Assembly: GCA_937948705.1 (NCBI GenBank)
Contig: CALECF010000203.1
Span: 1-30,782 of the forward strand
Origin: an uncultured Anaerosolibacter sp.
GTDB lineage: Bacteria > Bacillota_A > Clostridia > Peptostreptococcales > Thermotaleaceae
DNA length: 30,782 bases
Direction: 5' to 3'
The notes beneath the pieces are model-generated. The model was not told the origin of the DNA. It did not search any database and saw only the letters and a program-made list of their open reading frames with translations. Positions 4,589-25,184 of the stretch are shown one piece after another. The stretch's first letter is position 1. Each line of letters begins with the position of its first letter. Position numbers and translations under genes: made by a program.

Positions 4589-5536
4589 TTATTCGTTTAC
4601 AAGGACTGTTCCTGTTCTTCCTTCAATACCTTCCTTCGCCTTTTCCAAGGAGGTGATTAAAGCTTTTCTTCCCGGTTTTGATTCTACAAATTTCATGGCC
4701 GCTTTTACCTTTGGCAGCATAGAACCTGGGGCAAAGTGTCCTTCTTCAATATATTGCTTGACCTCAGCCACAGTCATCCGATCTAAATCCTTCTGATTTG
4801 GCTTGTTAAAGTGAATGGATACTTTTTCAACAGCGGTTAGAATGATTAGATAATCTGCATCTAAAATTTCTGCAATCTTTTCCGATGCGAAATCCTTGTC
4901 AATTACCGCTGGGACCCCTTCAAGGACGCCATTTCCTTTATCAATAACCGGTACCCCGCCCCCACCAACAGTTATGACGATATGCCCTGCATCTAGCAAG
5001 GTCTTTACAATCGGCGCTTCTACCACACCCACTGGCTCTGGTGATGCGACTACCCGTCTCCAGCCCCTACCTGCATCCTCCTTCATCACATAACCCTTTT
5101 CATCCTGTAGTCTTTGGGCCTCTTCTCCAGAGAAGAAGGAACCCACAGGTTTCGTTGGATTTTGGAATCCTGGATCATTTTTATCAACAATCACCTGGGT
5201 AACGATGGCGGCAACACTTTTATCAATTCCCCTATGGAACATTTCCTCACGGATAGCTTGTTGTAGATGATACCCAATATAACCTTGGCTCATAGCACCA
5301 CACTCTGGAAACGGCATAGTCGGTACACCTGCTGCTGCTTCATAAGTGGCTATAAGCTGGCCTACCTGAGGCCCATTCCCATGGGCGATGATAAGTTCAT
5401 GGCCATCTGCAATGAGATCCACCAATGGCTTTGCTGTGGACTTCGCAGTGATTAACTGAGATTCTGCTGTTGTATCCTTGGGATCTGCTTGCAGGGCATT
5501 TCCCCCAAGGGCAATAACAACTCTATCTTTTTTCAT
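4589..5536 (-). CDS. arcC: Carbamate kinase
   Basis: This 315-residue protein has the normal carbamate kinase length. It catalyses ATP formation from carbamoyl phosphate and ADP, the last and energy-yielding step of the arginine deiminase pathway, in the cytoplasm. Seen directly: the N-terminal 'VIALGGNALQ' nucleotide-binding start, 'IAHGNGPQVG', 'FPECGAMSQGYIGY', the 'VITVGGGGVPV' loop, and 'AVIDKDFASEKIA', which carries the lysine and aspartate usual in this amino-acid-kinase family. The C-terminal 'FAPGSMLPKV' is also typical. It starts 12 bases after the arcB stop, behind a GGGGGAAG site. It is the last gene of arcA-arcB-arcC. Confidence 0.97.
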   Translation of the reverse strand: MKKDRVVIALGGNALQADPKDTTAESQLITAKSTAKPLVDLIADGHELIIAHGNGPQVGQLIATYEAAAGVPTMPFPECGAMSQGYIGYHLQQAIREEMFHRGIDKSVAAIVTQVIVDKNDPGFQNPTKPVGSFFSGEEAQRLQDEKGYVMKEDAGRGWRRVVASPEPVGVVEAPIVKTLLDAGHIVITVGGGGVPVIDKGNGVLEGVPAVIDKDFASEKIAEILDADYLIILTAVEKVSIHFNKPNQKDLDRMTVAEVKQYIEEGHFAPGSMLPKVKAAMKFVESKPGRKALITSLEKAKEGIEGRTGTVLVNE

Positions 5537-5548
5537 GTTATCTTCCCC

Positions 5549-6544
5549 CTACGCTATGGTTGCAACGATCACTGCCTTGATGGTATGAAGTCTATTTTCA
5601 GCTTCATCAAACACTTTAGAATGCTTACTTCTAAATACCTCGTCAGTAACCTCCATTTCTTTCAAGCCATATTTTTCAAAAACTTCTTTCCCTACCTTTG
5701 TCTCAAGATCATGGAAAGCAGGCAAGCAATGAAGGAAAATAACATCTGGATTACCAGTCTTATTGATCATATCCATGTTTACTTGATATGGATGAAGCAT
5801 TTTGATTCTCTCATCAAACTGATCCTCTTCTCCCATGGACACCCATACATCAGTGTAAATCACATCAGCGTCCTTGACTGCTTCCTCTATATTCTCTGTG
5901 AGTTCAATGGTTGCCCCTGTTTCTTTTGCTACCTCTCTCATGTCAGCTACCAAGTCCTCTGCTGGGAATAGTTCCTTTGGCGCCAATGCCACGAAATGCA
6001 TTCCCATTTTAGCAGAGCCGATCAACAATGAATTTCCCATGTTATTTCTAGCGTCTCCAACATAGACAAACTTCACTTTATTTAAAGGCTTCGCCACATG
6101 CTCTTCTATGGTAAGCAAGTCTGCAAGAATTTGTGTAGGGTGATACATATCTGTTAAACCATTCCATACTGGAACCCCTGCATGCTTTGCCAATACCTCT
6201 ACGGTTTCTTGTTTAAAACCTCTGAACTCGATACCATCATACATTCTTCCCAATACCTTTGCGGTATCTTCTAAAGATTCTTTTTTGCCTATTTGGCTGT
6301 CACTTGAGCCTAGGAAGGTCACCCCTGCTCCCTCATCCATTGCGGCAACTTCAAAGGCACATCTTGTTCTTGTAGACGCCTTTTCAAATAACAATACAAT
6401 ATTTTTTCCATCTAATAACTTCTCTTTTCCACCGACTCTTTTTTTGTTTTTCAAGTCCTTAGAGAGATTTAATAAGTACCTAATCTCTTCCGGTGTAAAA
6501 TGTCTTAACGTTAAAAAATGTCTTCCTTTTAAATTCACTGCCAT
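5549..6544 (-). CDS. arcB: Ornithine carbamoyltransferase
   Basis: This 331-residue protein is the middle enzyme of the pathway. It splits citrulline by phosphate into ornithine and carbamoyl phosphate; the same fold can run in the biosynthetic direction as ArgF. Visible hallmarks are the carbamoyl-phosphate motif '[12 protein letters not shown]' (about residues 56-67), '[11 protein letters not shown]', '[11 protein letters not shown]', and the ornithine-site 'HCLPAFHD' near residue 270. Position between arcA and arcC argues for the catabolic role. The start is fixed by an AAGGAGG site. The (TTGTTAG)10 array touches that site directly upstream, leaving no room for a normal leader. Confidence 0.96.
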
Positions 6545-6558
6545 TGTTTTATTCCTCC

Positions 6559-6628
6559 TTGTTAGTTGTTAGTTGTTAGTTGTTAGTTGTTAGTTGTTAG
6601 TTGTTAGTTGTTAGTTGTTAGTTGTTAG
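6559..6628 (-). repeat. Ten-copy heptanucleotide tandem repeat before arcB
   Basis: Exactly ten perfect copies of TTGTTAG (CTAACAA on the coding strand) fill 70 bases between arcA and arcB. The last two bases of the array form the first A residues of the arcB AAGGAGG site. The array then passes into the element shared with 4501-4543. Perfect identity of all units suggests recent slipped-strand expansion. Confidence 0.95.
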
Positions 6629-6674
6629 TGAGATTTTGTCACGGCTCTATACTCCTGTCAAGGGGTTTTGACTT

Positions 6675-6700
6675 CAACCTTAACCTTAACCTCAACCTTA
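6675..6700. repeat. Short AACCTT-type repeat after arcA
   Basis: About four hexamer units (AACCTT with one AACCTC) lie 20-45 bases past the arcA stop. Related TTAGAGGTTA motifs occur at 13236, 13542, 16032 and 16221, always between or at the ends of genes. Confidence 0.6.
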
Positions 6701-6720
6701 TCCCACTCTTAATTTTATCC

Positions 6721-7980
6721 CTAAATCCCTTCCCTATACAGCGGCATGCTCATACATCTAGGGCCACCCCGGCCTCTTACCAGTTCGGATCCTTCTATTT
6801 CCACAACCTCAATGCCATACTGTCTTAGGGTTGCATTGGAGGCTTCATTTCGATCATAGGTTACCACGACACCTGGTGCAATGGCTAGAGTATTGGTACT
6901 GTCATTCCACTGTTCACGGGCTGCCGTTACCTCATCCCCACCTCCACTTTGAATAAACTGGATCGTGGGTACCTTCAATGCCTGCTTCAATGCATCTTGA
7001 AGATTTCCCATGGGCTCCACCTTAGGACAAGTCTTTCCTTCTGTGAGGCAGAAAGCTTTCACCTTATCCTCTACCCCTGGGTAAATGGTAAACTTATCAT
7101 AGTCCACCATGGTAAATACTGTATCCAAATGCATGTAGGCGCGGGTAAAAGGTATCTGTACTGCAATCACCTTCTTGATCTTCCCATCCCCTCTGAAAAG
7201 GTTCATGGCTAGATCCTCAATGCCTCGGGCAGAGGTTCTCTCACTACAGCCTACGGCGATAACGTTTTCTCCCAGTACAAGGATATCTCCACCCTCAAGG
7301 CTATATCTCCTATCATAGTCATACCAAAGAGGGCTCAGCTCCTTCTCAAAGCTTGGGTGATAGGTATAGATATATTTCAGTATCATCGTCTCCCTATCCC
7401 GGGCGTGGGTATTCATGGCATTTATTGAGAGTCCATTGCCGATCACAGCCCCAGGATCTCTGGTAAAATATAAATTGGGCAGTGGATTGATATAAAAAGG
7501 ATATTCTTCCTTAATATGATCAACCAATCGTTTTTCCCGTTGAATATCGGGAAAATCCTTCTTATGGAGTCCCGCGATCATGACCTCCGCAACATCCTGA
7601 GGTGTTTTCTCCATTAAAAAGCCTTTGATCAGTTCTTCAAGATCTGGATTTGCAATATTACACTTTGTTAAGACCTCTGTCACCAGTTGGTCTTTCACAT
7701 GGTCATCCTGGAGGATATCTGCCAACATTTCCTCGTAGTAATACACAGCACAGCCTCGCATTCTCAATGCATCTGCAAACCCATCATGCTCTATTCGCAT
7801 TTTTTTCAGCCATGGAATATCATCGAACAGCAGCTCATGTAAATATTGTGGTGTGATCCTTTCTAATTCTCTTCCAGGTCGGTGCAACATAACAGCTTTT
7901 AATTTTCCGATTTCTGACCTCACATCTAGAAATGGTTTTCTATCTGTTGTCAATTTGCTTCCCCCCAATACATAGGACAT
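6721..7980 (-). CDS. arcA: Arginine deiminase
   Basis: The enzyme hydrolyses arginine to citrulline and ammonia, the first step of arginine fermentation. Family motifs are plain: 'SEIGKLKAVMLHRPGREL' near the start, 'FTRDPGAVIGNG', 'YSLEGGDILVLG', 'HLDTVFTMVD', 'SGGGDEVTAAREQWNDSTN', and the catalytic cysteine in 'RGRGGPRCMSMPL' close to the C-terminus. The ATG at 7980 (419 residues) follows an AAAGGTGG site with tight spacing. A GTG lies two codons before it. A TTG at 7953 follows GGGGGGAAG at good spacing and would give 410 residues, a typical family length, so the true start is uncertain. It is the first gene of arcA-arcB-arcC. Confidence 0.97.
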   Translation of the reverse strand: MSYVLGGSKLTTDRKPFLDVRSEIGKLKAVMLHRPGRELERITPQYLHELLFDDIPWLKKMRIEHDGFADALRMRGCAVYYYEEMLADILQDDHVKDQLVTEVLTKCNIANPDLEELIKGFLMEKTPQDVAEVMIAGLHKKDFPDIQREKRLVDHIKEEYPFYINPLPNLYFTRDPGAVIGNGLSINAMNTHARDRETMILKYIYTYHPSFEKELSPLWYDYDRRYSLEGGDILVLGENVIAVGCSERTSARGIEDLAMNLFRGDGKIKKVIAVQIPFTRAYMHLDTVFTMVDYDKFTIYPGVEDKVKAFCLTEGKTCPKVEPMGNLQDALKQALKVPTIQFIQSGGGDEVTAAREQWNDSTNTLAIAPGVVVTYDRNEASNATLRQYGIEVVEIEGSELVRGRGGPRCMSMPLYREGI

Positions 7981-8025
7981 TTCCACCTTTTGTCGTTTTA
8001 TGAATAATCTAACTTTTCTAAATTA

Positions 8026-10242: not shown

Positions 10243-11127
10243 CTATTGATAGGGTGATTTAGGAAGTCCATGTCTATACTTACCTCTCGTTTGCATTCCT
10301 CCCACACCCTTCAGGCCTGTGATTGTATTTTCTAAGATTTCCTCAATGGGTATAAAGCGATCCACGCTCGAGTACGCGATTTTTTCACAAATAAATACTG
10401 GGTCTAAGCAATGGATTAGTATGCGATGGGGTGAACTGGCAAAATTTGCCCCCGCCGATAAAATAGCTTCATAATGGGATTGACAAGCACCTGCGAAAAT
10501 CACAAGATCATCCATATTTGGCTCATATCGCCTCGCCTCTTTTACAGCCTCAATAAAATATTTAGAACTTCGATAGTTTTGAATGTTGGTAAAATCTTTA
10601 TATCCTCTTAGGAGCCCATCATGGCCTGTGATCACCAAAATATCTGGTGCATACTCTCGCAAGAGGTCTGATATGACCCGGGGTTGATCAGACTCCGCTA
10701 TTTTCTTGCCGACAGCTTCTATTTCCAACTGTTTATATGTTTTTAGACAAACATCAAGGTATTCGCCATCTCCATCTAGATGCAATACCCTTCCAGATTT
10801 TCCAAAGGGTACCCCTCCTCTGATATGTTCAGGTATTGTTCTTGTTAATCCACCGTATCCTTCGTGTTTCTGATTCCTTTCCTTCATGATACGCTTCACA
10901 ATTTTATCAATTTTTTTGGTATACGAATGGTGAAACTCATTTAGCTTGTTCAGTGGTATCTTTTGGAGATCCTCTTCAGGAGCATCAGCTATGATCCTTA
11001 GATCCACACCCTTTAACACGATGGTACTTTGTCTCCCTGGCCGTTCAACAATATCTACAACCTTGAACAATATATCATAGTCATATGACTTTCTTGCCAC
11101 CAAATCTCCTATCCTTAAATAGTTCAT
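10243..11127 (-). CDS. yabG: Sporulation-specific protease YabG
   Basis: This 294-residue protein matches YabG (peptidase family U57) along its length. It opens with 'IGDLVARKSYDYDILFKVVDI', a small beta-barrel-like segment, followed by the conserved core 'PGRVLHLDGDGEYL'-type region around residue 110 ('GRVLHLDGDGEYL'), 'PDILVITGHDG', 'FAGACQSHYEA', and 'ASSPHRILIHCLDPV'. The conserved Cys and His in those last two motifs are the likely catalytic positions. YabG is made in the mother cell under sigma-K and trims coat proteins; in Clostridioides difficile it also processes germination proteases. It starts at an ATG behind AGGAGG and heads a likely operon with the SpoIID/amidase gene. Confidence 0.96.
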   Translation of the reverse strand: MNYLRIGDLVARKSYDYDILFKVVDIVERPGRQSTIVLKGVDLRIIADAPEEDLQKIPLNKLNEFHHSYTKKIDKIVKRIMKERNQKHEGYGGLTRTIPEHIRGGVPFGKSGRVLHLDGDGEYLDVCLKTYKQLEIEAVGKKIAESDQPRVISDLLREYAPDILVITGHDGLLRGYKDFTNIQNYRSSKYFIEAVKEARRYEPNMDDLVIFAGACQSHYEAILSAGANFASSPHRILIHCLDPVFICEKIAYSSVDRFIPIEEILENTITGLKGVGGMQTRGKYRHGLPKSPYQ

Positions 11128-12168: not shown

Positions 12169-13164
12169 CTATAGAAACTTCTTATGATATTTCTCTAAGA
12201 AGTCCATCTGAAACGGAAAATCATCGGCGGTTTCTACCAAATGCTTTAAAAATACGTCGTCTGACCAATTATATTTTTCATAGTAATAGCGGCTACAAAT
12301 TCGCCAGAATTTCTGGGGAAACTGAAATAGAGTCGCCATGAGCTTTAGTTCGATATCCGATAGACTCCGAGTTTGATTATATGCCTCCAAAAGCTCCATG
12401 GCCATGTCAAAATCCCAGTAAAACCGTCGCATATTTCGCATAATGAAGTGGGCTAAATCATAGCATCTCAGCTCATGTTTACAATAATCAAAATCGATAA
12501 CATGTGGGCTCCCATCAGAATCTAAGATGATATTATGATAAGTATAGTCATGGTGGCATAAGTAACCTTCTCTATCTTCTAATGCTACTTGTTGATCATA
12601 GCCATGGTCTTGGAGCATTTGGATAGCACTCACGCCCATTCGATAGCACATGTCTACATTTCTTAAAAAGAGCATATCTACGGTTTCTTTTATGGATTTC
12701 ATTTTCACTAAACTTTTTATGACAACGAGATCTTCACACCGCTTCAAATAAATTTTAGGCCATTTCCCCAGATCTGACTTTACCTTACTGGTTTCAGGCG
12801 CTGTAAATCCCTTAGAGGCTATGTGTAATTTCCCTAAGTTCACTGCAGCAGCCTTTACTTCTATGGGGTTATGGAAATCGCACTCTCTACCATCAATCCA
12901 TTTGGTCATAATATATAAATCATTCTTATTTCTCGCAAAGGGTCTTTGATAAGCCAATCGATAACGATCTATATGATAAAACCCATTTTGAGCCAAATGC
13001 TCTTTTGCACTGTACAGGAATAGAAGTTTATCCTCTTCGTAGTTAATCTTCTTTAAGCAGAATCGTCCCTCATTACTATCCACAAGATATACCGCCCGGA
13101 GGGGAATGATACTCTTTACCCTTAGGCCAAATTTTTTTACAATTTCTCTAAGTTTTGCATCCAA
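12169..13164 (-). CDS. CotS-family spore coat protein, kinase-like fold
   Basis: This 331-residue protein belongs to the CotS/YutH group, spore coat proteins with the aminoglycoside-phosphotransferase fold. Visible: an N-lobe with 'FCLKKINYEEDKLLF', whose Lys pair suits ATP binding, 'MTKWIDGRECDFHNP', 'LGKWPKIYLKRCEDL', the catalytic loop 'YLCHHDYTYHNIIL' (HxDxxxxN pattern), and 'VIDFDYC' in place of DFG. The C-terminal half is helical with many Tyr and Trp. It therefore keeps the residues needed for phosphotransfer, although no substrate is known for the family. The start follows GGGGGAGG by about 11 bases. A sigma-K-like promoter directly upstream fits late mother-cell expression. It stands alone, away from the cotS operon at 17.8-21.3 kb. 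Confidence 0.93.
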   Translation of the reverse strand: MDAKLREIVKKFGLRVKSIIPLRAVYLVDSNEGRFCLKKINYEEDKLLFLYSAKEHLAQNGFYHIDRYRLAYQRPFARNKNDLYIMTKWIDGRECDFHNPIEVKAAAVNLGKLHIASKGFTAPETSKVKSDLGKWPKIYLKRCEDLVVIKSLVKMKSIKETVDMLFLRNVDMCYRMGVSAIQMLQDHGYDQQVALEDREGYLCHHDYTYHNIILDSDGSPHVIDFDYCKHELRCYDLAHFIMRNMRRFYWDFDMAMELLEAYNQTRSLSDIELKLMATLFQFPQKFWRICSRYYYEKYNWSDDVFLKHLVETADDFPFQMDFLEKYHKKFL

Positions 13165-16356: not shown

Positions 16357-17469
16357 ATGCGAATTGGTATTGATGGCCGAGGAGCTGTATGGTATAGGGG
16401 TACCGGTATTGGTACCTATACGAATCAACTACTGCATCATCTTCATGCCCTAGACGAGAAAAACACATACTCTATTTTCTTTTCTCAAGATGCACCATTT
16501 CCATGGATAGATTTAGGGAACTTTCAATCAATACAGCTCAATACCCATAAGGATACCTATCTACAGGACACTGTGGTGGATCAATTCCTCAAAACCCAAC
16601 CTTTTGATGTCTACCACATACCACAAAACGGCATTGGACTTCCAAGGGATAAGCATTGTCCCTATATCATTACCCTTCACGATGTGATTCCCTATGTTCT
16701 ACCGGAAACCTGCAGCAAGACTTACTTAAAAACTTTTATGGAACAGATGGATCATATCATCAAAAATGCTGACCATATCATTACCGTCTCAAATCATGCC
16801 AAGAATGATATTTATCAGGTCCTAGGGGTTCCCACATCTAAAATCACGGTAACGCCTTTAGCCCCTGAAAAAATATATCGCCCCATGGACAAGAAAACAT
16901 GTATTGACTACCTTAAAAATCGCTATGGCCTTGACCGTGAATATATTCTATATATCGGCGGTATGAACCCTAGAAAAAATATAGGTGCTCTCATTGATGC
17001 TTTCCATTTATGTCAAAAAAAGCTATCTAAAAACTACTGTATTGTTATCGGAGGCTCTCATGGTAGAAGCTACGAGAGCTTACGCTTACGCTGCGAAGCC
17101 CTAGGTTTAACCAATGACATTATTTTTCCTGGCTATATTCCACTGGAGGAGCTTCCTGTCTTCTACAATGGAGCCTCCCTATTTGTGTATCCTTCCTTAT
17201 ATGAGGGTTTTGGTTTGCCACCTCTAGAAGCTATGGCCTGTGGCATCCCCACCATTTGCTCCAATACCACGTCAATCCCTGAGGTTGTCGGAAATGCTGC
17301 CCTGCTCATAGATCCCTATGATGTGGAAAATTTAGCAGAAAAAATAACCCTGGTGCTAGAGAGCTCGTCCACCTACGCCATCATGGTCCATAAAGGCCTG
17401 CAGCGGGCAAAACAATATACCTGGGAGAAAACTGCAAAAAAAACTCTCGAAATATACCTTTCTTTCTAA
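16357..17469 (+). CDS. CotSA-like family 4 glycosyltransferase
   Basis: This 370-residue retaining glycosyltransferase has a GT-B fold. The start 'MRIGIDGRGAVWYRGTGIGTYT' gives the Gly-rich first loop, 'FDVYHIPQNGIGLPR' and 'IITLHDVIPYVLPET' follow, and the C-terminal domain shows 'YILYIGGMNPRKNIGALI' and the nucleotide-sugar motif 'YEGFGLPPLEAMACGIP' with the E-x7-E pair. No membrane segment or signal is present. It is a close paralogue of the protein at 21464-22579. CotSA is a spore coat glycosyltransferase-like protein in Bacillus, and CotS genes are beside it here, so a spore-surface role is likely; donor and acceptor are unknown. Start at an ATG behind TGGAGGAT. A CATATAATG box 30 bases upstream is sigma-K-like but lacks a clear -35. 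Confidence 0.93.
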   Translation: MRIGIDGRGAVWYRGTGIGTYTNQLLHHLHALDEKNTYSIFFSQDAPFPWIDLGNFQSIQLNTHKDTYLQDTVVDQFLKTQPFDVYHIPQNGIGLPRDKHCPYIITLHDVIPYVLPETCSKTYLKTFMEQMDHIIKNADHIITVSNHAKNDIYQVLGVPTSKITVTPLAPEKIYRPMDKKTCIDYLKNRYGLDREYILYIGGMNPRKNIGALIDAFHLCQKKLSKNYCIVIGGSHGRSYESLRLRCEALGLTNDIIFPGYIPLEELPVFYNGASLFVYPSLYEGFGLPPLEAMACGIPTICSNTTSIPEVVGNAALLIDPYDVENLAEKITLVLESSSTYAIMVHKGLQRAKQYTWEKTAKKTLEIYLSF

Positions 17470-17546: not shown

Positions 17547-17780
17547 ATGAGCCATAAACGTCATGATAGATGTAAATGTGTAGATAGAGACGATGCAAGA
17601 TGTAAAGCTCTTTTGTGCAAGCTTGAAGAAGAATATTGCAGAAAAAGATGCGCATTAAAGGATGCTATCAAAGACGCCGAGTGCCGTGTGAAGGCACTTA
17701 GGGATGAACTCGATGCTCTAGAGAAATGCTATGAGAAAGAAAGAAGAGCTATCAAAAGAGAATGTGAGCGTCGCTGCTAA
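17547..17780 (+). CDS. Small Cys-rich, highly charged coiled-coil protein, candidate spore coat component
   Basis: This 77-residue protein has ten cysteines (13%) and is otherwise almost all Lys, Arg, Asp, Glu, Ala and Leu. Residues about 20-76 form a single long helix with heptad-like Leu/Ala/Cys spacing, so the cysteines at 24, 31, 35, 46, 61 and 73 could cross-link parallel helices. The N-terminus 'HKRHDRCKCVDRDD' is a short His/Cys-rich tip and may bind metal. I do not recognise a named family. It has a strong GGGAGGT site, its own terminator, and lies between a CotSA-like gene and a cotS operon. A cross-linked coat or exosporium protein is a reasonable guess; a metal-binding role is the alternative. 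Confidence 0.85.
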   Translation: MSHKRHDRCKCVDRDDARCKALLCKLEEEYCRKRCALKDAIKDAECRVKALRDELDALEKCYEKERRAIKRECERRC

Positions 17781-17786
17781 GAATAG

Positions 17787-17820
17787 GAAATGACCGGGAT
17801 TACATCCCGGTCATTTCTTT
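17787..17820. terminator. Bidirectional terminator overlapping a cotS 3' end
   Basis: A perfect 14-base-pair stem (GAAATGACCGGGAT / ATCCCGGTCATTTC) with a 3-base loop lies between convergent genes. Its right arm encodes the last five residues and its loop holds the stop of the minus-strand cotS gene. Only short T-runs follow on either side. Confidence 0.85.
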
Positions 17821-18858
17821 GAAATCCTGTAGAAAATCTTCTCGCAAATCCTTCCACTCAGATTTGTCTATGATCTTTCCCGTATAGGTTTCATCATGCC
17901 ATCGTTTATTTTCCAAGTAAAACTGGCTGGCAATTCTCCAAAAATCCATGGGGAACCTCAAGTATACATAGATTGCCTTTAATTCATCCTGACTGAGGCT
18001 GCTGTGCCGTTGATATCCATCCAATATATACTCAGCCCGCTCAATATCCCAGAAACACTTTTTAAGATTTCTATGAATAATACTACCCACATCATTAATT
18101 CTTAGATCAAAAATACAGTATTCGAAATCCAGGACAGCTACTTCCTGGTGATCGTAGGATATGAGTAGGTTGTGGTAGGCATAATCGTTATGGCAAAATC
18201 CTTTTTCCTTCCTGGCTTTTTCTACAAGCCCCTCATAATCAAAATTTCTTAATCCCTCACAGGCTGCCAAGGCATCCTCATAATAATAATCCACATACTT
18301 GAGAAATATTTCATCAAATTGAATCTTATCTTGTTTTTTCTCTGCCATTTCCTTCATCAGCAGCAGCTCTTCACTTCGCTTTTTATAAACCTCTGGCCAT
18401 TTCCCCAAAAGATTCCGGTGTTCATCTCCAAAATTTGTGGTGAAGCCTTTAGATGCTTCATGGAGCTCTGCCAAGGTCTTCACTGCAATATCCAATTCTA
18501 TTGGATTTTCATAATCACACTCCCGGCCATCGATCCAGTCCATCATAAAATACGTATCTTCCCCATAGGTCAAAAATAGATTCCCATCTAAGGTTCTTCG
18601 AATTCTCGAGACCTTGTGGAAGCCATTTTGTGTTAAATGTTCAATGGCATCGTGGGTAAAGTAAATATTTCTATAATCCGCCTTTATCTTCTTTAAACAT
18701 TTAAAACCTTGGTCTGTCTCGATTCGATATATGCCCCTTTTCGGCACAATATCTATCACCTTCAGCCCGTAGGCCTTGAATATATCTGGTGTCAGCATAT
18801 AATCTACAAGAATGGCCGCTTCCTCCTCTCTGCTCATTTCAATAGGCTCATGCATCAT
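17800..18858 (-). CDS. CotS-family spore coat protein, kinase-like fold
   Basis: This 352-residue CotS paralogue has the catalytic loop 'FCHNDYAYHNLLI' (HxDxxxxN) and 'VLDFEYC' in the DFG position, plus 'FKCLKKIKADYRNIYF', 'MMDWIDGRECDYENP' and 'LLGKWPEVYKKRSEEL', shared nearly word for word with the protein at 12169. It therefore keeps the phosphotransferase residues; substrate unknown. It is the last gene of a four-gene minus-strand operon. Its start overlaps the end of the upstream CotS-like gene by 11 bases, with the ribosome binding site GAGGTGG inside that gene, which points to translational coupling. Two adjacent ATG codons could serve as start. Expected in the mother cell and on the spore coat. 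Confidence 0.93.
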   Translation of the reverse strand: MMHEPIEMSREEEAAILVDYMLTPDIFKAYGLKVIDIVPKRGIYRIETDQGFKCLKKIKADYRNIYFTHDAIEHLTQNGFHKVSRIRRTLDGNLFLTYGEDTYFMMDWIDGRECDYENPIELDIAVKTLAELHEASKGFTTNFGDEHRNLLGKWPEVYKKRSEELLLMKEMAEKKQDKIQFDEIFLKYVDYYYEDALAACEGLRNFDYEGLVEKARKEKGFCHNDYAYHNLLISYDHQEVAVLDFEYCIFDLRINDVGSIIHRNLKKCFWDIERAEYILDGYQRHSSLSQDELKAIYVYLRFPMDFWRIASQFYLENKRWHDETYTGKIIDKSEWKDLREDFLQDFKEMTGM

Positions 18859-19858
18859 CCTTCACCACCTCGCATAAGTCTAAATTTTTCATGTCTTTCT
18901 GCAGTTTCTCTACCTTGAGTACCTTCTTCAGCTTTTTGCTCCAATGGCTATCGGATTCACTACTCCTGTTTTTGTAATAGCGTTCTATAAACTTAAAATA
19001 CTCGTGAGGAAATTGAATATATGCTTGGATCAGCTTTATCTCATCCCCACACAGAGGATAATGACGGTGATATGTGTGTATAATCTCCTTCGCTCTTTCT
19101 GACTGCTCCATATTGGCTAAAATCAAATTGGCCACATCCACGGAATGCATATCATGCTTTGCGCCTTCTAGGGATGCAATTTTAACGATATCATCTTTCC
19201 CCTTTACAAAACTCTTTTTTGTAAAGTGATTGATGCAGAGCTCTCTTTTCTCCATGGATGCGCTTACCATATCTAAGTAGGGTATTTCCTTCAGAATAGC
19301 AATACAGTCGTTGCCCTGCTCCAAATGCCTATCTATGCTTTCTAAAATTCCCTTTTCCGACTTCTCTCGATGATGTTTTTCTCGGATCTGCTGCCTTACT
19401 TTATTCCCTAGGGTAACATAGGCTTGAAAAACCCAAGGCCACCGCCCCCACTCCGTTCGAATTTTGCTTCCTGGAATTGCTTCAAAATCCACGGAGGATT
19501 GGTGGAATAGAGCCATGGTGTGAATGACTTCATTTAATATCTCTATGGATTCATAGTTTGCGAAATTGTAATCCTCCCAAGGTATGATTTGAAAAAGGTC
19601 TTCCCCCATGGCCATATAAGGCTTTCCATCTCTAGTGGGCAAGATATCTAAAATACAATGAAGTCCCCTCTTTTTGATTTGTTGGTAAATAGAGTAGTGG
19701 AAAAGTGCCTCTGCTTCACTACGAGCCATGACCTCTACTCGAAATCTCCCCTGGTTTGTATCTAAAATCCAGCCCTTTTGCTGGGCAATGATCTCATAAA
19801 CATCCAAGCCATAGTTTTTTCGAATGCTCACTACTAAAGGCTTAGTTTCCTCAGCCAT
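18848..19858 (-). CDS. CotS-like protein lacking the catalytic motifs (pseudokinase candidate)
   Basis: This 336-residue protein follows the CotS layout: N-lobe 'RKNYGLDVYEIIAQQKGWILDTNQG', 'GRWPWVFQAYVTLG' for the GKWP motif, and a C-terminal 'IKLIQAYIQFPHEYFKFIERYYKN' matching 'FPQEFWQIGLQYYLEK' of its neighbours. The active-site segments are gone: the HxD loop reads 'LCINHFTKKSF', and the DFD/DFE motif reads 'IASLEG'. The N-lobe Lys pair is replaced by 'FRVEVMAR'. The frame is intact, it has a GGGGGG ribosome binding site and sits 14 bases after its upstream neighbour, so it looks selected rather than decaying. A structural or regulatory partner of the two active-looking CotS proteins in the same operon is the simplest idea. 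Confidence 0.82.
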   Translation of the reverse strand: MAEETKPLVVSIRKNYGLDVYEIIAQQKGWILDTNQGRFRVEVMARSEAEALFHYSIYQQIKKRGLHCILDILPTRDGKPYMAMGEDLFQIIPWEDYNFANYESIEILNEVIHTMALFHQSSVDFEAIPGSKIRTEWGRWPWVFQAYVTLGNKVRQQIREKHHREKSEKGILESIDRHLEQGNDCIAILKEIPYLDMVSASMEKRELCINHFTKKSFVKGKDDIVKIASLEGAKHDMHSVDVANLILANMEQSERAKEIIHTYHRHYPLCGDEIKLIQAYIQFPHEYFKFIERYYKNRSSESDSHWSKKLKKVLKVEKLQKDMKNLDLCEVVKDDA

Positions 19859-19872
19859 ATCTTTATCCCCCC

Positions 19873-20295
19873 TTAGTCGTGACTATTTTTATATTTAAAC
19901 TCTTCTCTCAGTACCTTATACTCGTCCTCTAGGGCTGGGTCAAGACGATCTTCTTTATATAACTTCCTCAAAATCTTATATCGTTTCATCTTCTTTTCTT
20001 CCAGCTCTTCTTTTTTCTTTCTGAGTTTCTTTAAATACTTGATTTCTTGTTTTGTCTCATTGATCTTCTCTTCATAGGCCTCCAGATCTCTATGCTGGAC
20101 ATAGGCGCTCTGATTAATTTCTTTCTCAATTTCCACAAACTCAATGGTTCTTGACATATAGGTTTTCACCGCAGCCCGATCCTCCGCAGACATTCGATGC
20201 ATCGTATCTAAAATGAACTCCAGCTCTTCCATCCATTTCCTGCGATACTCTTCGATACTGGATATACGAAGAATTCTTTCATGATCCTCTTCCAT
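19873..20295 (-). CDS. Coiled-coil orphan in the cotS operon
   Basis: This 140-residue, highly charged protein has no signal peptide or membrane segment. Residues 1-60 form helices with 'EYRRKWMEELEFILDTMHRM' and 'AVKTYMSRTIEFVEIEKEI'. Residues about 68-125 are a dense Lys/Glu coiled coil, followed by 'YKEDRLDPALEDEYKVLREEF'. I recognise no family. It lies 14 bases from each neighbour in the cotS operon, with a GAGG/GGAG site next to its ATG. It probably acts with the CotS proteins, perhaps as a coat scaffold or adaptor; that is inferred from context only. Confidence 0.85.
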   Translation of the reverse strand: MEEDHERILRISSIEEYRRKWMEELEFILDTMHRMSAEDRAAVKTYMSRTIEFVEIEKEINQSAYVQHRDLEAYEEKINETKQEIKYLKKLRKKKEELEEKKMKRYKILRKLYKEDRLDPALEDEYKVLREEFKYKNSHD

Positions 20296-20309
20296 CCTCC
20301 GACTCCCCT

Positions 20310-21320
20310 CTATACCAAAAATTTTTTCATAAAAACTTCTCGTAAAGGTATATCCTCTAAAATGCGATCTAGCCTTCTATGAAATACCTCTTCTTCCCAT
20401 GGTTGTTTCTCCAAATAGTATTGAAGACCAATCTGCCAAAACTCCTGGGGAAATTCCATAAATGATTTTATGGCACCAATCTCTTCAGCCAAAATTGACT
20501 TCTCTCGATTATAGGTATTCCATATAAAATATGCCTTGTCTAGGGACCAACAACCATACCGTATGTTTCGAATGATCAAACTGGCCAAATCATGAATAGG
20601 CATATCCAATATACAGTAATCAAAGTCAATCAAGTACACGTTCTGATCCTCTGTAATCAGTACATTATGATGGGCAATATCATGGTGACAAAAGGTACGA
20701 TCACGACGGCTGTTTTCGGCCAGCCTATCGTAGCTGGTGTTCTCCAAATCTCTGATTGCCCGAATGCCCCAGTCATAGAAATAATCCGTATATCGAAGGA
20801 ACTTTTGGTCAAATGCATCCTTTACTTCCTTACTCTGGGCAATTTCTTTAAACATTTGTAAATCTTTACAACGTTTTTGAAAATGCTTCATCCACTTTCC
20901 CCAAAACACCCTACCCTCTATGGTGATACTCGGTTCAAATCCCTTGGCTGCATGGTGAAAATGGGCTAGGGCACTGGTTGTTAACTCTAAATCTAAATAG
21001 TCGTCATAATTTGCTTCCCTTCCATCGATCCACTGGCTTACCATGATGACTCCGTCATCCACCTGTATTCCTTGTCTCCCATCCAATGTCTCCATAACCT
21101 TCGGAATATGATAAAACCCATGATTCCGTCCATGGGTCATGGCTTCTATTGTGAATAGATATCGATCGTAAGGTGCATTCACCTTCTTTAAAAGCTTCAT
21201 CCCATCATCGGTGAATATTTTAAACACTCTTTTTTTTTCTTCCCATTCAAATACCTTTATACCATAGTGTTCGACGATGAGTTGTTTTAGGTTATTGCAC
21301 AATATGAAAGGTTTTCCCAT
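20310..21320 (-). CDS. CotS-family spore coat protein, kinase-like fold
   Basis: This protein of about 336 residues heads the four-gene operon. Catalytic loop 'FCHHDIAHHNVLI' and 'LIDFDYC' are intact, with 'MKLLKKVNAPYDRYLF' in the N-lobe, 'VSQWIDGREANYDD', and 'FWGKWMKHFQKRCKDL'. The C-terminal helical part 'FMEFPQEFWQIGLQYYLEKQPW' is strongly shared with the other CotS proteins. The start is unsure: an ATG at 21320 follows a weak GGGATGTGA site, and a GTG lies three codons upstream. A sigma-K-type promoter ends about 35 bases before it. It is divergent from the CotSA-like gene at 21464, so the two may be switched on together. Confidence 0.93.
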   Translation of the reverse strand: MGKPFILCNNLKQLIVEHYGIKVFEWEEKKRVFKIFTDDGMKLLKKVNAPYDRYLFTIEAMTHGRNHGFYHIPKVMETLDGRQGIQVDDGVIMVSQWIDGREANYDDYLDLELTTSALAHFHHAAKGFEPSITIEGRVFWGKWMKHFQKRCKDLQMFKEIAQSKEVKDAFDQKFLRYTDYFYDWGIRAIRDLENTSYDRLAENSRRDRTFCHHDIAHHNVLITEDQNVYLIDFDYCILDMPIHDLASLIIRNIRYGCWSLDKAYFIWNTYNREKSILAEEIGAIKSFMEFPQEFWQIGLQYYLEKQPWEEEVFHRRLDRILEDIPLREVFMKKFLV

Positions 21321-21352
21321 CTTTATCACATCCCAACATCAGAGTTCTATTG

Positions 21353-21379
21353 TATTATATGACCAAAATGGGAATGTGT
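21353..21379 (-). promoter_or_regulatory. Candidate sigma-K promoter of the cotS operon
   Basis: On the minus strand AC is followed after 16 bases by CATATAATA, a perfect match to CATAnnnTA. The -10 ends about 33 bases before the start codon. Confidence 0.6.
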
Positions 21380-21463: not shown

Positions 21464-22579
21464 ATGTTGATTAGTATAGATACCCGGGGTGCAAAGCTCT
21501 ATGCAGGTACAGGAATTGGCACCTATACCCATGAGCTCATGAAAAACATCCTAAAATTGGATCATAAGAATCAATATCTATTTTTCTGGCCTGGTGAGGG
21601 ATATGATCAATTCCAACGCCATGCCAATATTGATGTGCATTTGGTGGGAACAAAGAATAAAACCTTTTGGACTTACGATTATATTCCCCATCATGTAAAA
21701 AAGAGCAGTGCCAAGCTTTTTCATATTCCCCAGAATGGCCTAGGCCTTCCCAAGGAAAAATTCTGCAGATACGTAGTTACGATCCATGATCTCATCCCTT
21801 TGATACTTCCTGAAACGGTGGGTTATAGTTATCGACAGAGATTTGTCGAGGAAATGCCCGCCATCGTTGAAAACGCCGATGCCATCATCACTGTATCTGA
21901 GTATTCTAAAAAGGATATCATTCAGTATTTTGGCATACCTGAAGAAAAAGTAGTGGTGACGCCTCTAGCAGCTGATGAAATCTATCACCCTATTCATCAT
22001 GTAGAAGCCAAGCGATTCATGAAAGCTTCTTATGGCATCGACCATGAATTCATCCTATACTTGGGAGGCTTTAGTGCTAGAAAAAATGTCTTAGGCCTTA
22101 TCCAAGCCTATGCTAAATCTCTTGATTCCCTTAAAAGTACCTATGATTTGGTTATCGCCGGTGCTCCAAATGACTCCCATGACGAGATTGTCTCTACCAT
22201 TGATCGTCTTGGATTAAAGGATCGCGTTATTTTCACAGGTTTTGCACCCTACAGCCACTTACCCTATTTTTATAATGCAGCCTCCCTATTTGTCTATCCC
22301 TCCCTTTATGAAGGCTTTGGTTTGCCTCCCCTTGAAGCCATGGCCTGTGGATGCCCCACCATTACCTCTAATCTAACTTCGATCCCCGAGGTAGTAGGGG
22401 ATGCAGCCATACTAATCAATCCCTATGATGTGGATGAACTCTCCCAATCCATCATTCGGGTTCTAGAAGACAAGAAGCTCTCCATGAAATTAATCGTCAA
22501 GGGATTGGAGCAGGCGTCTCATTTTTCATGGGAGAATACGGCGAGAAGTACGCTGAAGGTCTATGAATCCCTTCAATAG
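21464..22579 (+). CDS. CotSA-like family 4 glycosyltransferase
   Basis: This 371-residue GT-B enzyme is a clear paralogue of 16357-17469: 'ISIDTRGAKLYAGTGIGTYTHE' at the start, 'LFHIPQNGLGLPKEK', 'VVTIHDLIPLILPETVG', 'FILYLGGFSARKNVLGLI' and 'YEGFGLPPLEAMACGCP' with the E-x7-E pair. No signal or membrane segment is present. It should transfer a sugar from a nucleotide donor to a spore-surface acceptor; GDP-mannose made by the ManC at 24.1-25.2 kb is a possible donor. The ATG follows AGGAGGT by 7 bases. It faces away from the cotS operon across 134 bases. Confidence 0.94.
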   Translation: MLISIDTRGAKLYAGTGIGTYTHELMKNILKLDHKNQYLFFWPGEGYDQFQRHANIDVHLVGTKNKTFWTYDYIPHHVKKSSAKLFHIPQNGLGLPKEKFCRYVVTIHDLIPLILPETVGYSYRQRFVEEMPAIVENADAIITVSEYSKKDIIQYFGIPEEKVVVTPLAADEIYHPIHHVEAKRFMKASYGIDHEFILYLGGFSARKNVLGLIQAYAKSLDSLKSTYDLVIAGAPNDSHDEIVSTIDRLGLKDRVIFTGFAPYSHLPYFYNAASLFVYPSLYEGFGLPPLEAMACGCPTITSNLTSIPEVVGDAAILINPYDVDELSQSIIRVLEDKKLSMKLIVKGLEQASHFSWENTARSTLKVYESLQ

Positions 22580-24071: not shown

Positions 24072-24112
24072 ACAGGAGAGACAAATGGATTTGTCTCTCC
24101 TGTTTATCTTTT
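24067..24112. terminator. Bidirectional terminator between CGGC gene and manC
   Basis: A perfect 20-base-pair stem begins GATAAACAGG and closes on a two-base GG centre. T-rich tracts follow on both strands. The CGGC stop codon is in the left arm; the manC stop is just to the right. Confidence 0.93.
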
Positions 24113-25184
24113 ATATGAACTTTGTAAGCTCCTGTTGTTCTACGATAATTTTTAATAGTTCTTTAATATCTTGATCTCTGGATTTATCGCAAACCAATAC
24201 CACGTCTCCCGTGTCTACGATGATCAAATTGCTTACCCCAATGGTAGCAATTAGACGATCTTCTCCAAAAATGATACACTCTCTTGTATCAATTTTAGAG
24301 TTCAGGGCTTTGACAATATTTCCATTTTCATCTTTATCAAAAAATCTTTCAAACGCCGTCCAGCTTCCGATATCATCCCATCTAAAATCAGCCTCAATCA
24401 CATTGACCCTGGTACTTCTCTCCATGATGCCATAGTCTATAGAAATGCCATCGATCTCCTCATAGGTCTCTTCTAAGACCGCCGCTGCCTGGTCCGTACC
24501 AATGGCATCACTAATCTTCATGAGGCTAGTAAACAGATCCGGAAGAAAGCGCTTGATTTCCTCCATTAGTACCGATGCCTTCCACACAAACATACCACTA
24601 TTCCAAAGATAAGTGCCTTTGTTCACAAATTCGATAGCCTTCACCTTATTGGGTTTCTCAATAAACCTTTTTGCTACGTAAACTGGGCAATCATACTGAG
24701 CGATGGACTTACCCGCCTCAATATAGCCATAGGCAGTTTCCGGTCTCGCGGGCTTGATTCCCATGGTCATTAGACAGTTCGTTTCTTCTACGATGGTGAT
24801 GGCATCATGAATCACTTCAACAAATTTATCCTGATCAAAGATCAGGTGGTCCGAAGGAAGTACTACCATCGTTGCATTTGGATCCTTTTTTAACAAATGT
24901 ACAGCTGCAAGACCTATACATGTGGCAGTGTCTCTATTCATAGGCTCAATTAAAATATTCTCCGAAAGAATTTCCGGGATTTGCGTCTCTAGGGTGTCTA
25001 TATATTGACTACTGGTTACAATATATATCCGATCCATGGGCACGACTTTGCTGATCCGATCTACTGTTGTTTGTATCATTGTCTTTGCTCCCACGGTTCT
25101 AAGGAACTGCTTTGGTCTACTCTTACGGCTTTTGGGCCAAAATCGCGACCCTACACCACCGGACATGATGACTGCGTATACCAT
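24111..25184 (-). CDS. manC: Mannose-1-phosphate guanylyltransferase
   Basis: This 357-residue enzyme makes GDP-mannose from GTP and mannose 1-phosphate. It shows the nucleotidyltransferase signature 'GGVGSRFWPKSRKSRPKQFL' near residue 9, 'IEPMNRDTATCIGLAA', 'VVLPSDHLI', the 'FIEKPN' motif, 'YLWNSGMFVWKA' and 'ADFRWDDIGSW'. Length fits the single-domain form without a fused phosphomannose isomerase. The ATG follows AAGGAGGCG. It stands alone on the minus strand. In this setting GDP-mannose would feed spore-surface or wall glycans made by the two CotSA-like enzymes, an inference from proximity. A 90-base piece of this gene is copied at 28296-28386. Confidence 0.95.
   Translation of the reverse strand: MVYAVIMSGGVGSRFWPKSRKSRPKQFLRTVGAKTMIQTTVDRISKVVPMDRIYIVTSSQYIDTLETQIPEILSENILIEPMNRDTATCIGLAAVHLLKKDPNATMVVLPSDHLIFDQDKFVEVIHDAITIVEETNCLMTMGIKPARPETAYGYIEAGKSIAQYDCPVYVAKRFIEKPNKVKAIEFVNKGTYLWNSGMFVWKASVLMEEIKRFLPDLFTSLMKISDAIGTDQAAAVLEETYEEIDGISIDYGIMERSTRVNVIEADFRWDDIGSWTAFERFFDKDENGNIVKALNSKIDTRECIIFGEDRLIATIGVSNLIIVDTGDVVLVCDKSRDQDIKELLKIIVEQQELTKFI

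Follow-up and report, generated by a model that had tools for sequence, protein, structure and literature searches.

A conserved coiled-coil gene among CotS-family kinase and pseudokinase genes in a candidate spore-coat operon of Anaerosolibacter and related Clostridia

Most Clostridium genomes were described by Scheeff et al. (2009) as carrying an operon of bacterial spore kinases (BSKs) in the order BSKC2-BSKC6-BSKC1, with BSKC4 nearby and two glycosyltransferases (GTs) flanking it (PMC2860764). The middle gene encodes a pseudokinase, BSKC6, which lacks the N-lobe, and an N-lobe-bearing form, BSKC6L, was described in Caldicellulosiruptor and Anaerocellum; according to the same paper, none of the spore-coat kinases had been tested for activity as of 2009, and there was no explanation for why catalysis had been lost repeatedly in the family (PMC2860764). 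Here we examine an operon of this kind in a 30,782-nucleotide stretch of DNA from an uncultured Anaerosolibacter sp. (contig CALECF010000203.1, assembly GCA_937948705.1; hereafter the window). It encodes two CotS-family kinase-like proteins, CotS-A and CotS-B, a CotS-family pseudokinase, psi, and, between CotS-A and psi, a coiled-coil protein, CC, which by sequence is a conserved companion of CotS-A in many relatives and is new relative to the published trio.

In Bacillus subtilis, BSKs are likewise linked to CotSA-type family-4 GTs (GT4) in the cotS-cotSA-ytaA(cotI) cluster, for which sigma-K/GerE control and a coat location are described, and CotSA needs CotS for its assembly into the spore, so that a BSK can evidently recruit a GT (PMC2860764). 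Unlike the operon studied here, the Bacillus-like "HQD" CotS and GT4 pairs form separate loci in other genomes (L139-L144, L230 and L231; L and G numbers are our designations for loci and genomes) without the triad or CC. YutH and YsxE of the Bacillales are also BSK-family spore-coat proteins without catalytic activity (PMC2860764), but CotS-A, psi and CotS-B score 35-77 bits against cut-offs of 215-264 and stand in another genomic context. Among clostridia, a gel band of exosporium/spore-surface proteins of C. sporogenes contained a CotS-family protein (PMC4942563), five cotS genes of C. beijerinckii (X276_24750, 24745, 24740, 24730 and 22470) are given among spore-coat genes (PMC6362236), C. 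perfringens cotS (CPR_2192) is given beside yabG (CPR_2191) among sporulation genes (PMC4433262), and one cotS gene of C. acetobutylicum clusters with sporulation genes (PMC2530871). In the open-licence literature, BSKC6, BSKC1 or BSKC2 is named only in the 2009 paper (PMC2860764), no paper joins coiled-coil, CotS, Clostridium and spore coat, and literature searches turned up no subsequent study of these clostridial BSKs.

The kinase-pseudokinase-kinase trio

The operon reads, on the minus strand, CotS-A (20310-21329), CC (19873-20295), psi (18848-19858) and CotS-B (17800-18858). CotS-A and CC are separated by 14 bases, as are CC and psi, and psi and CotS-B overlap by 11 bases. The GTG at 21329 may lie too far upstream to be the start of CotS-A, whose translation may instead begin at an in-frame ATG at 21320. 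The catalytic motifs are intact in CotS-A (HHDIAHHN...DFD) and CotS-B (HNDYAYHN...DFE), as they are in a lone CotS downstream, CotS-L (HHDYTYHN...DFD), whereas psi reads NHFTKKSF...SLE at these positions and has neither HxD nor DFD. CotS-A (313 bits) and CotS-B (337 bits) pass the 172.7-bit cut-off of TIGR02906 (spore_CotS, NCBIfam); psi, at 168.0 bits, falls just below it, and its three close orthologues score 179.6-191.8 bits. CotS-A matches B. subtilis YtaA/CotI (2q83) at E 1.2e-35 by phmmer; neither CotS-B (147.7 bits) nor CotS-A (139.8 bits) belongs to the B. subtilis CotI equivalog NF053880, with its cut-off of 550.

This arrangement matches the published BSKC2-BSKC6-BSKC1 operon, as far as it is described in PMC2860764: two putatively active BSKs surround a pseudokinase that has lost its catalytic residues and retained a structural His and Asp, two CotSA-like GTs flank the group, and a further BSK lies nearby. 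By position, we assign CotS-A to BSKC2, CotS-B to BSKC1 and CotS-L to BSKC4. Two differences stand out, namely that psi of the window keeps its N-lobe, like BSKC6L, and that a conserved coiled-coil gene separates the first kinase from the pseudokinase.

Conservation was assessed in 35 loci with adjoining CotS-A and psi, comprising the window, three close relatives (G001-G003: Anaerosolibacter carboniphilus, an Anaerosolibacter metagenome-assembled genome and Thermotalea metallivorans) and 31 further genomes of the class. CotS matches at E <= 1e-30 occur in 97 of the 391 class genomes sampled. A pseudokinase profile was run on 70 genomes chosen for two or more CotS matches (46 of those 97, 17 of 30 in a phylum sample and 7 of 15 in an order sample, with G001-G003 already known), and the regions were then read. 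All 18 short-psi matches were fetched and the full-length ones were chosen by eye among the matches listed, so that the number of full-length loci is at least 17. The psi-B row of L226, whose B lacks the N of the motif, was dropped, bringing the rows from 36 to 35; L225 (G463) is uncounted because its CotS-A lies on another contig; CotS-A of L218 (72 N in the stretch) is split into two open reading frames (ORFs), of which the first was used as is; and L195 is cut at both contig ends.

All three close relatives, among them A. carboniphilus DSM 103526 (L151), carry the full four-gene order. Across the 35 loci, CotS-B follows psi in 32; in L207 and L223 the sequence runs out within 323 bases, and the next 6.8 kb of L215 contain no B. 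Of 33 testable loci, 32 have a divergent GT4 no more than 1.5 kb upstream of CotS-A, and a GT4 on the opposite strand lies downstream, at 18 bases to 8.1 kb, in 22 of 35. A lone CotS is found downstream in 30 of 35 loci, YabG in 28, and ManC within the fetched stretch in 11. The initial annotation had described a four-gene cotS operon with two motif-bearing and one motif-less CotS, and ORF coordinates and motif readings bear out its order, spacing and motif content; its proposed check of gene order in relatives gave a positive answer, in that the genes are kept together in these loci, though patchily in the window's own group. Its picture of kinases in active and inactive pairs gives way to a trio, with the motif-less member between two motif-bearing ones.

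The catalytic Asp is present in 35 of 35 A rows, 32 of 32 B rows and 30 of 30 L rows of the motif table, and CotS-A, CotS-B and CotS-L are thus, on motifs, putatively active. Some erosion of CotS-B seems to have taken place in a subclade on long branches (L222, L224, L226), where the DFD pattern is gone in L222 and L224 and the HxD....N pattern in L226; counting every B row, Gly replaces the first Asp of DFD in two and Ser replaces the Asn of HxD....N in one.

In psi, HxD is intact in none of the 35 rows. Four N-lobe-less rows still have D in the Asp column but have lost the His, and three psi rows have D as the first Asp of DFD; the structural equivalents of YtaA His148 and Asp269 are present in 32 and 35 of the 35 rows, respectively. 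The window protein has no catalytic Asp (equivalent to D239 of YtaA), the loss that marks BSKC6 and BSKC6L, and it sits where they do, in an operon with flanking GTs and with a putatively active BSK on either side. The absence of the N-lobe that strictly defines BSKC6 is not found in it, as it is 336 amino acids (aa) long with a modelled N-lobe; by order, motif loss, full length and a single psi clade, it corresponds to BSKC6L. A quick tree on C-lobe columns (35 psi and 30 L rows, with long psi branches) sets the A rows, the psi rows and the CotS-L rows apart from the rest by one branch each, with Shimodaira-Hasegawa-like approximate likelihood ratio supports of 95, 98 and 95, and B needs two changes.

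Homology of psi to CotS follows from profile comparison and structure. By hhalign, window psi aligns with motif-bearing CotS at E 2.2e-41, and the N-lobe-less psi aligns with window psi at E 3.3e-15 and with motif-bearing CotS at 1e-17. An AlphaFold2 model of psi has a mean predicted local distance difference test score (pLDDT) of 88.9; its best match in the PDB is YtaA (2q83; template modelling score, TM, 0.78), and it also resembles N-acetylhexosamine 1-kinase (TM 0.71). A Pfam assignment, PF27663, exists in precomputed form for psi and its closest homologues (P0001-P0005), and a direct Pfam search gave no match. The ratio of nonsynonymous to synonymous substitution rates (omega), in the window and the three close relatives, is 0.03-0.13 for the genes tested in pairs with unsaturated synonymous divergence (dS), and 0.054 and 0.072 for psi (two of six pairs), which indicates that psi is under purifying selection as judged from these sequences. 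A recent pseudogene was rejected on omega values far below 1 where measurable and on recurrence in 35 loci, and a non-homologous insert on the profile comparisons and the match to YtaA; as for carriage on plasmids, psi gave no tblastn match in the plasmid set.

The coiled-coil companion of CotS-A

The initial annotation regarded the coiled-coil protein as an orphan. A homologous CC, however, occupies the slot between CotS-A and psi in 25 of the 35 loci, namely the window, the three close relatives and 21 of the 31 further genomes. These ORFs are rich in charged residues around a core Y...I...K.EIK.LKKL.KKKEK.E.LE.EK..I.KK and come in a long form of 137-140 aa in the window (140 aa) and the close relatives, and a short form, in the other 21, of 63-87 aa as first listed. 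A profile built from the 21 short proteins alone detects all four long ones, with E values from 4.3e-8 to 5.3e-6 for a database size of 10,000 (3.7e-7 for window CC); the remaining ORFs among the 7,356 searched all stay at E 0.022 or above. As controls, none of 2,000 residue shuffles was reported at E <= 100, and 8,000 shuffles with the heptad register preserved scored at most 17.3 bits, against 25.7-32.4 bits for the long proteins.

The association with CotS-A is close. A search of the class sample of 391 genomes with a joint CC profile (A7), from which L220 was excluded as a near copy of L219, gave one strong match in each of 24 genomes, with a weak extra match (E 5.9e-4) in G325. CC stands directly behind CotS-A in all 24 CC-bearing genomes, and in 22 of these it is the CC already known between CotS-A and psi. 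In the other two, G389 and G463, the CotS that precedes CC has CotS-A as its best match, and the contigs (4,367 bases in G389, 7,823 in G463) end there; CC without psi was therefore rejected as a reading of these two genomes. Displacement of CC elsewhere in genomes lacking it in the slot was also rejected, as none of those ten is among the 24 A7-positive genomes.

No Pfam or NCBIfam model matches CC at its cut-off, and the word "coiled" is absent from the main text of PMC2860764; a small protein without a family model can stay unnoticed in a known locus. Its AlphaFold2 model is a long helix (residues 37-114) with a mean pLDDT of 82.9 and a predicted TM-score of only 0.45, confident in the conserved core (block means of 92-97 pLDDT, residues 71-130). 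Omega is 0.073-0.092 for the long form (three of six pairs with unsaturated dS) and 0.055-0.181 for the short form (four of ten pairs), so that, where dS is unsaturated, the sequences point to purifying selection on CC. Conservation across relatives suggests that the four proteins act together on the spore surface, and the position of CC between a motif-bearing and a dead kinase offers a concrete, testable complex.

The promoter and the case for a joint function

The sigma-K consensus used here is AC-N15-18-CATAnnnTA. The -10 element predicted in the initial annotation is present as CATATAATA at 21353-21361 on the minus strand, 23 nucleotides before the GTG start of CotS-A, and together with its upstream AC forms a sigma-K-like promoter, AC-N16-CATATAATA (21353-21379, minus strand). 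The -10 alone is weak evidence because CATAnnnTA is common in the window (38 seen, 25.8 expected; the largest of 100 shuffles gave 37). It is invariant before CotS-A in four of four close orthologous loci, and the full consensus lies within -150 to +30 of CotS-A in 18 of 34 loci, these four included, compared with 1.15 expected and at most 5 in 300 simulated sets. Within the window, the full consensus has 12 matches (4.5 expected), three of them upstream of genes (0.38 expected): 23 nucleotides before CotS-A, 20 before CotS-L and 99 before a surface-layer-homology-type ORF at the window edge. The enrichment before CotS-A fits sigma-K control, and by sequence the operon qualifies as a candidate member of the sigma-K regulon. 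Scans for sigma-70 sites in the region were not informative.

We give about even credence to the proposal that the conserved operon encodes one spore-coat complex, made of two kinases, psi and CC, for work on spore-surface glycans, probably driven by sigma-K. The operon would probably be transcribed late in the mother cell. CotS-A and CotS-B would act as kinases with intact catalytic motifs, psi would keep the fold without the catalytic residues, and CC would be a long-helix adaptor; psi and CC would most likely scaffold CotS-A and CotS-B and, along with the CotSA-like GT4 enzymes encoded on either side, anchor them to the coat as it forms. The kinases would then transfer phosphate to a sugar or glycan precursor for use by the GT4 enzymes, and GDP-sugar might come from ManC; the idea of sugar kinases that feed ManC and GT4 is a guess, drawn from the neighbouring genes and from proteins of similar fold such as N-acetylhexosamine 1-kinase. 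The data show gene order, motif loss, conservation, the psi clade, CC homology with its unique linkage, and promoter enrichment, whereas we infer that the proteins form a complex, that it lies in the coat of this species, and that the kinases are active on such a substrate. The dependence of CotSA on CotS in B. subtilis and the CotS-family protein among C. sporogenes spore-surface proteins also speak for the proposal. The spore-surface glycan setting and linked function put forward in the initial annotation gain support from synteny across the 35 loci (GT4, lone CotS, YabG) and from the promoter in 18 of 34, and the joint function stays a proposal. More tentatively, and with clearly less confidence, CC may be an undescribed dedicated partner, a long-helix adaptor joining the pseudokinase, the two kinases and the GTs in a four-protein assembly older than the split of the sampled lineages, with loss of the psi N-lobe making CC dispensable.

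Several observations weigh against the proposal of a single sigma-K-driven coat complex. The full consensus is missing in 16 of 34 loci, and even CATAnnnTA itself is absent from 10 of the 12 full-length-psi loci that could be tested beyond the close group. Upstream of the BSKC1/2/6 operon the 2009 study reports no sigma-E site, and its authors raise the possibility that spore association does not extend to all clostridial BSKs (PMC2860764). No CC is found in the slot in 10 of 35 loci, and its link to the psi N-lobe is not independent evidence, since the N-lobe was lost once on the tree. The distribution near the window is also patchy: of 16 family genomes 3 carry psi, and of 198 order genomes 15 have a strong CotS match.

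The best surviving alternative, possible though somewhat doubtful, is that psi is a structural coat protein or a co-transcribed leftover of duplication, that CC is an independent small coat protein, and that the four share timing and no complex. Coat operons often bundle unrelated structural proteins, and several features of this one would fit: psi is short and N-lobe-less in 18 of 35 loci, CC is absent from ten, and psi evolves faster than A and B, as reflected in the identities of the window proteins to those of L150 and L151 (73-77% for psi, 82-86% for A and B). Shared timing alone, however, sits poorly with omega well below 1 where measurable, with psi rows that form one clade and, in 32 of 35 loci, have A on one side and B on the other, and with a CC directly behind CotS-A in every CC-bearing genome.

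Another possibility, which we consider unlikely, is that CC binds specifically to the psi N-lobe, or to the lobe interface, and that after loss of the N-lobe in one lineage it became dispensable and was lost several times. CC accompanies all 17 full-length psi and 8 of the 18 without N-lobe, and all four CC changes required by parsimony fall inside the N-lobe-less clade. That clade stems from a single N-lobe loss, though, eight of its loci keep CC, and well-supported branches alone force only two CC changes; the Fisher p of 3e-4 ignores kinship, and an independent-pairs test had one pair, which leaves the association only suggestive. Least probable by far is that the coiled-coil similarity reflects convergent composition and that window CC is an orphan restricted to its lineage: coiled coils resemble one another in composition, window CC is only 22-36% identical to the short ones and a profile of the long type alone matched 3 of 198 genomes of the order, yet the short-form profile, which excludes the window type, retrieves it while both shuffle controls stay below it, and the two forms fill the same genomic slot.

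Genes around the operon

The surroundings of the operon are related to sporulation and include YabG, a SpoIID/amidase protein, a YhcN/YlaJ lipoprotein, the lone CotS, two GT4s, a GT2 and a ManC-like enzyme. The CotSA-like family-4 glycosyltransferase GT4b (21464-22579, plus strand; PF00534) is divergent from the operon, and the second, GT4a (16357-17469, plus strand; PF00534), lies on its other side. CotS-L (12169-13164, minus strand; PF01636) has AC-N18-CATAGTATA upstream, and YabG, the spore-coat protease (10243-11127, minus strand; PF05582), is a syntenic marker of the cluster. The ManC-like mannose-1-phosphate guanylyltransferase (24111-25184, minus strand; PF00483 and PF22640) scores 324 bits against TIGR01479, below the cut-off of 372.95. 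In four other genomes of the order (L145-L148), a CotS beside GT2 and YabG lacks HxD....N by pattern, yet scores above the TIGR02906 cut-off.

Downstream, a terminator-like hairpin of 14 pairs (17787-17817, minus strand) lies between CotS-B and a convergent small gene; terminator-like sites of the hairpin type number 5 in the region, against 2.8 expected. That gene (17547-17780, plus strand), 19 bases from CotS-B, encodes a 77-aa coiled-coil-like protein with ten Cys that begins MSHKR. It is kept in L150, L151 and L152 at 78-88% identity to the window, with omega of 0.058-0.128 (five of six pairs), and no relative beyond the three close relatives was found in the loci scanned; it is possibly a disulphide-linked coat protein. 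Genes of the arginine deiminase pathway adjoin the SpoIID/YabG end in the window (4589-7986) and also in L145, L171, L172, L220 and L226; these encode arginine deiminase and ornithine transcarbamylase and, in some loci, also a protein of the amino-acid-kinase fold.

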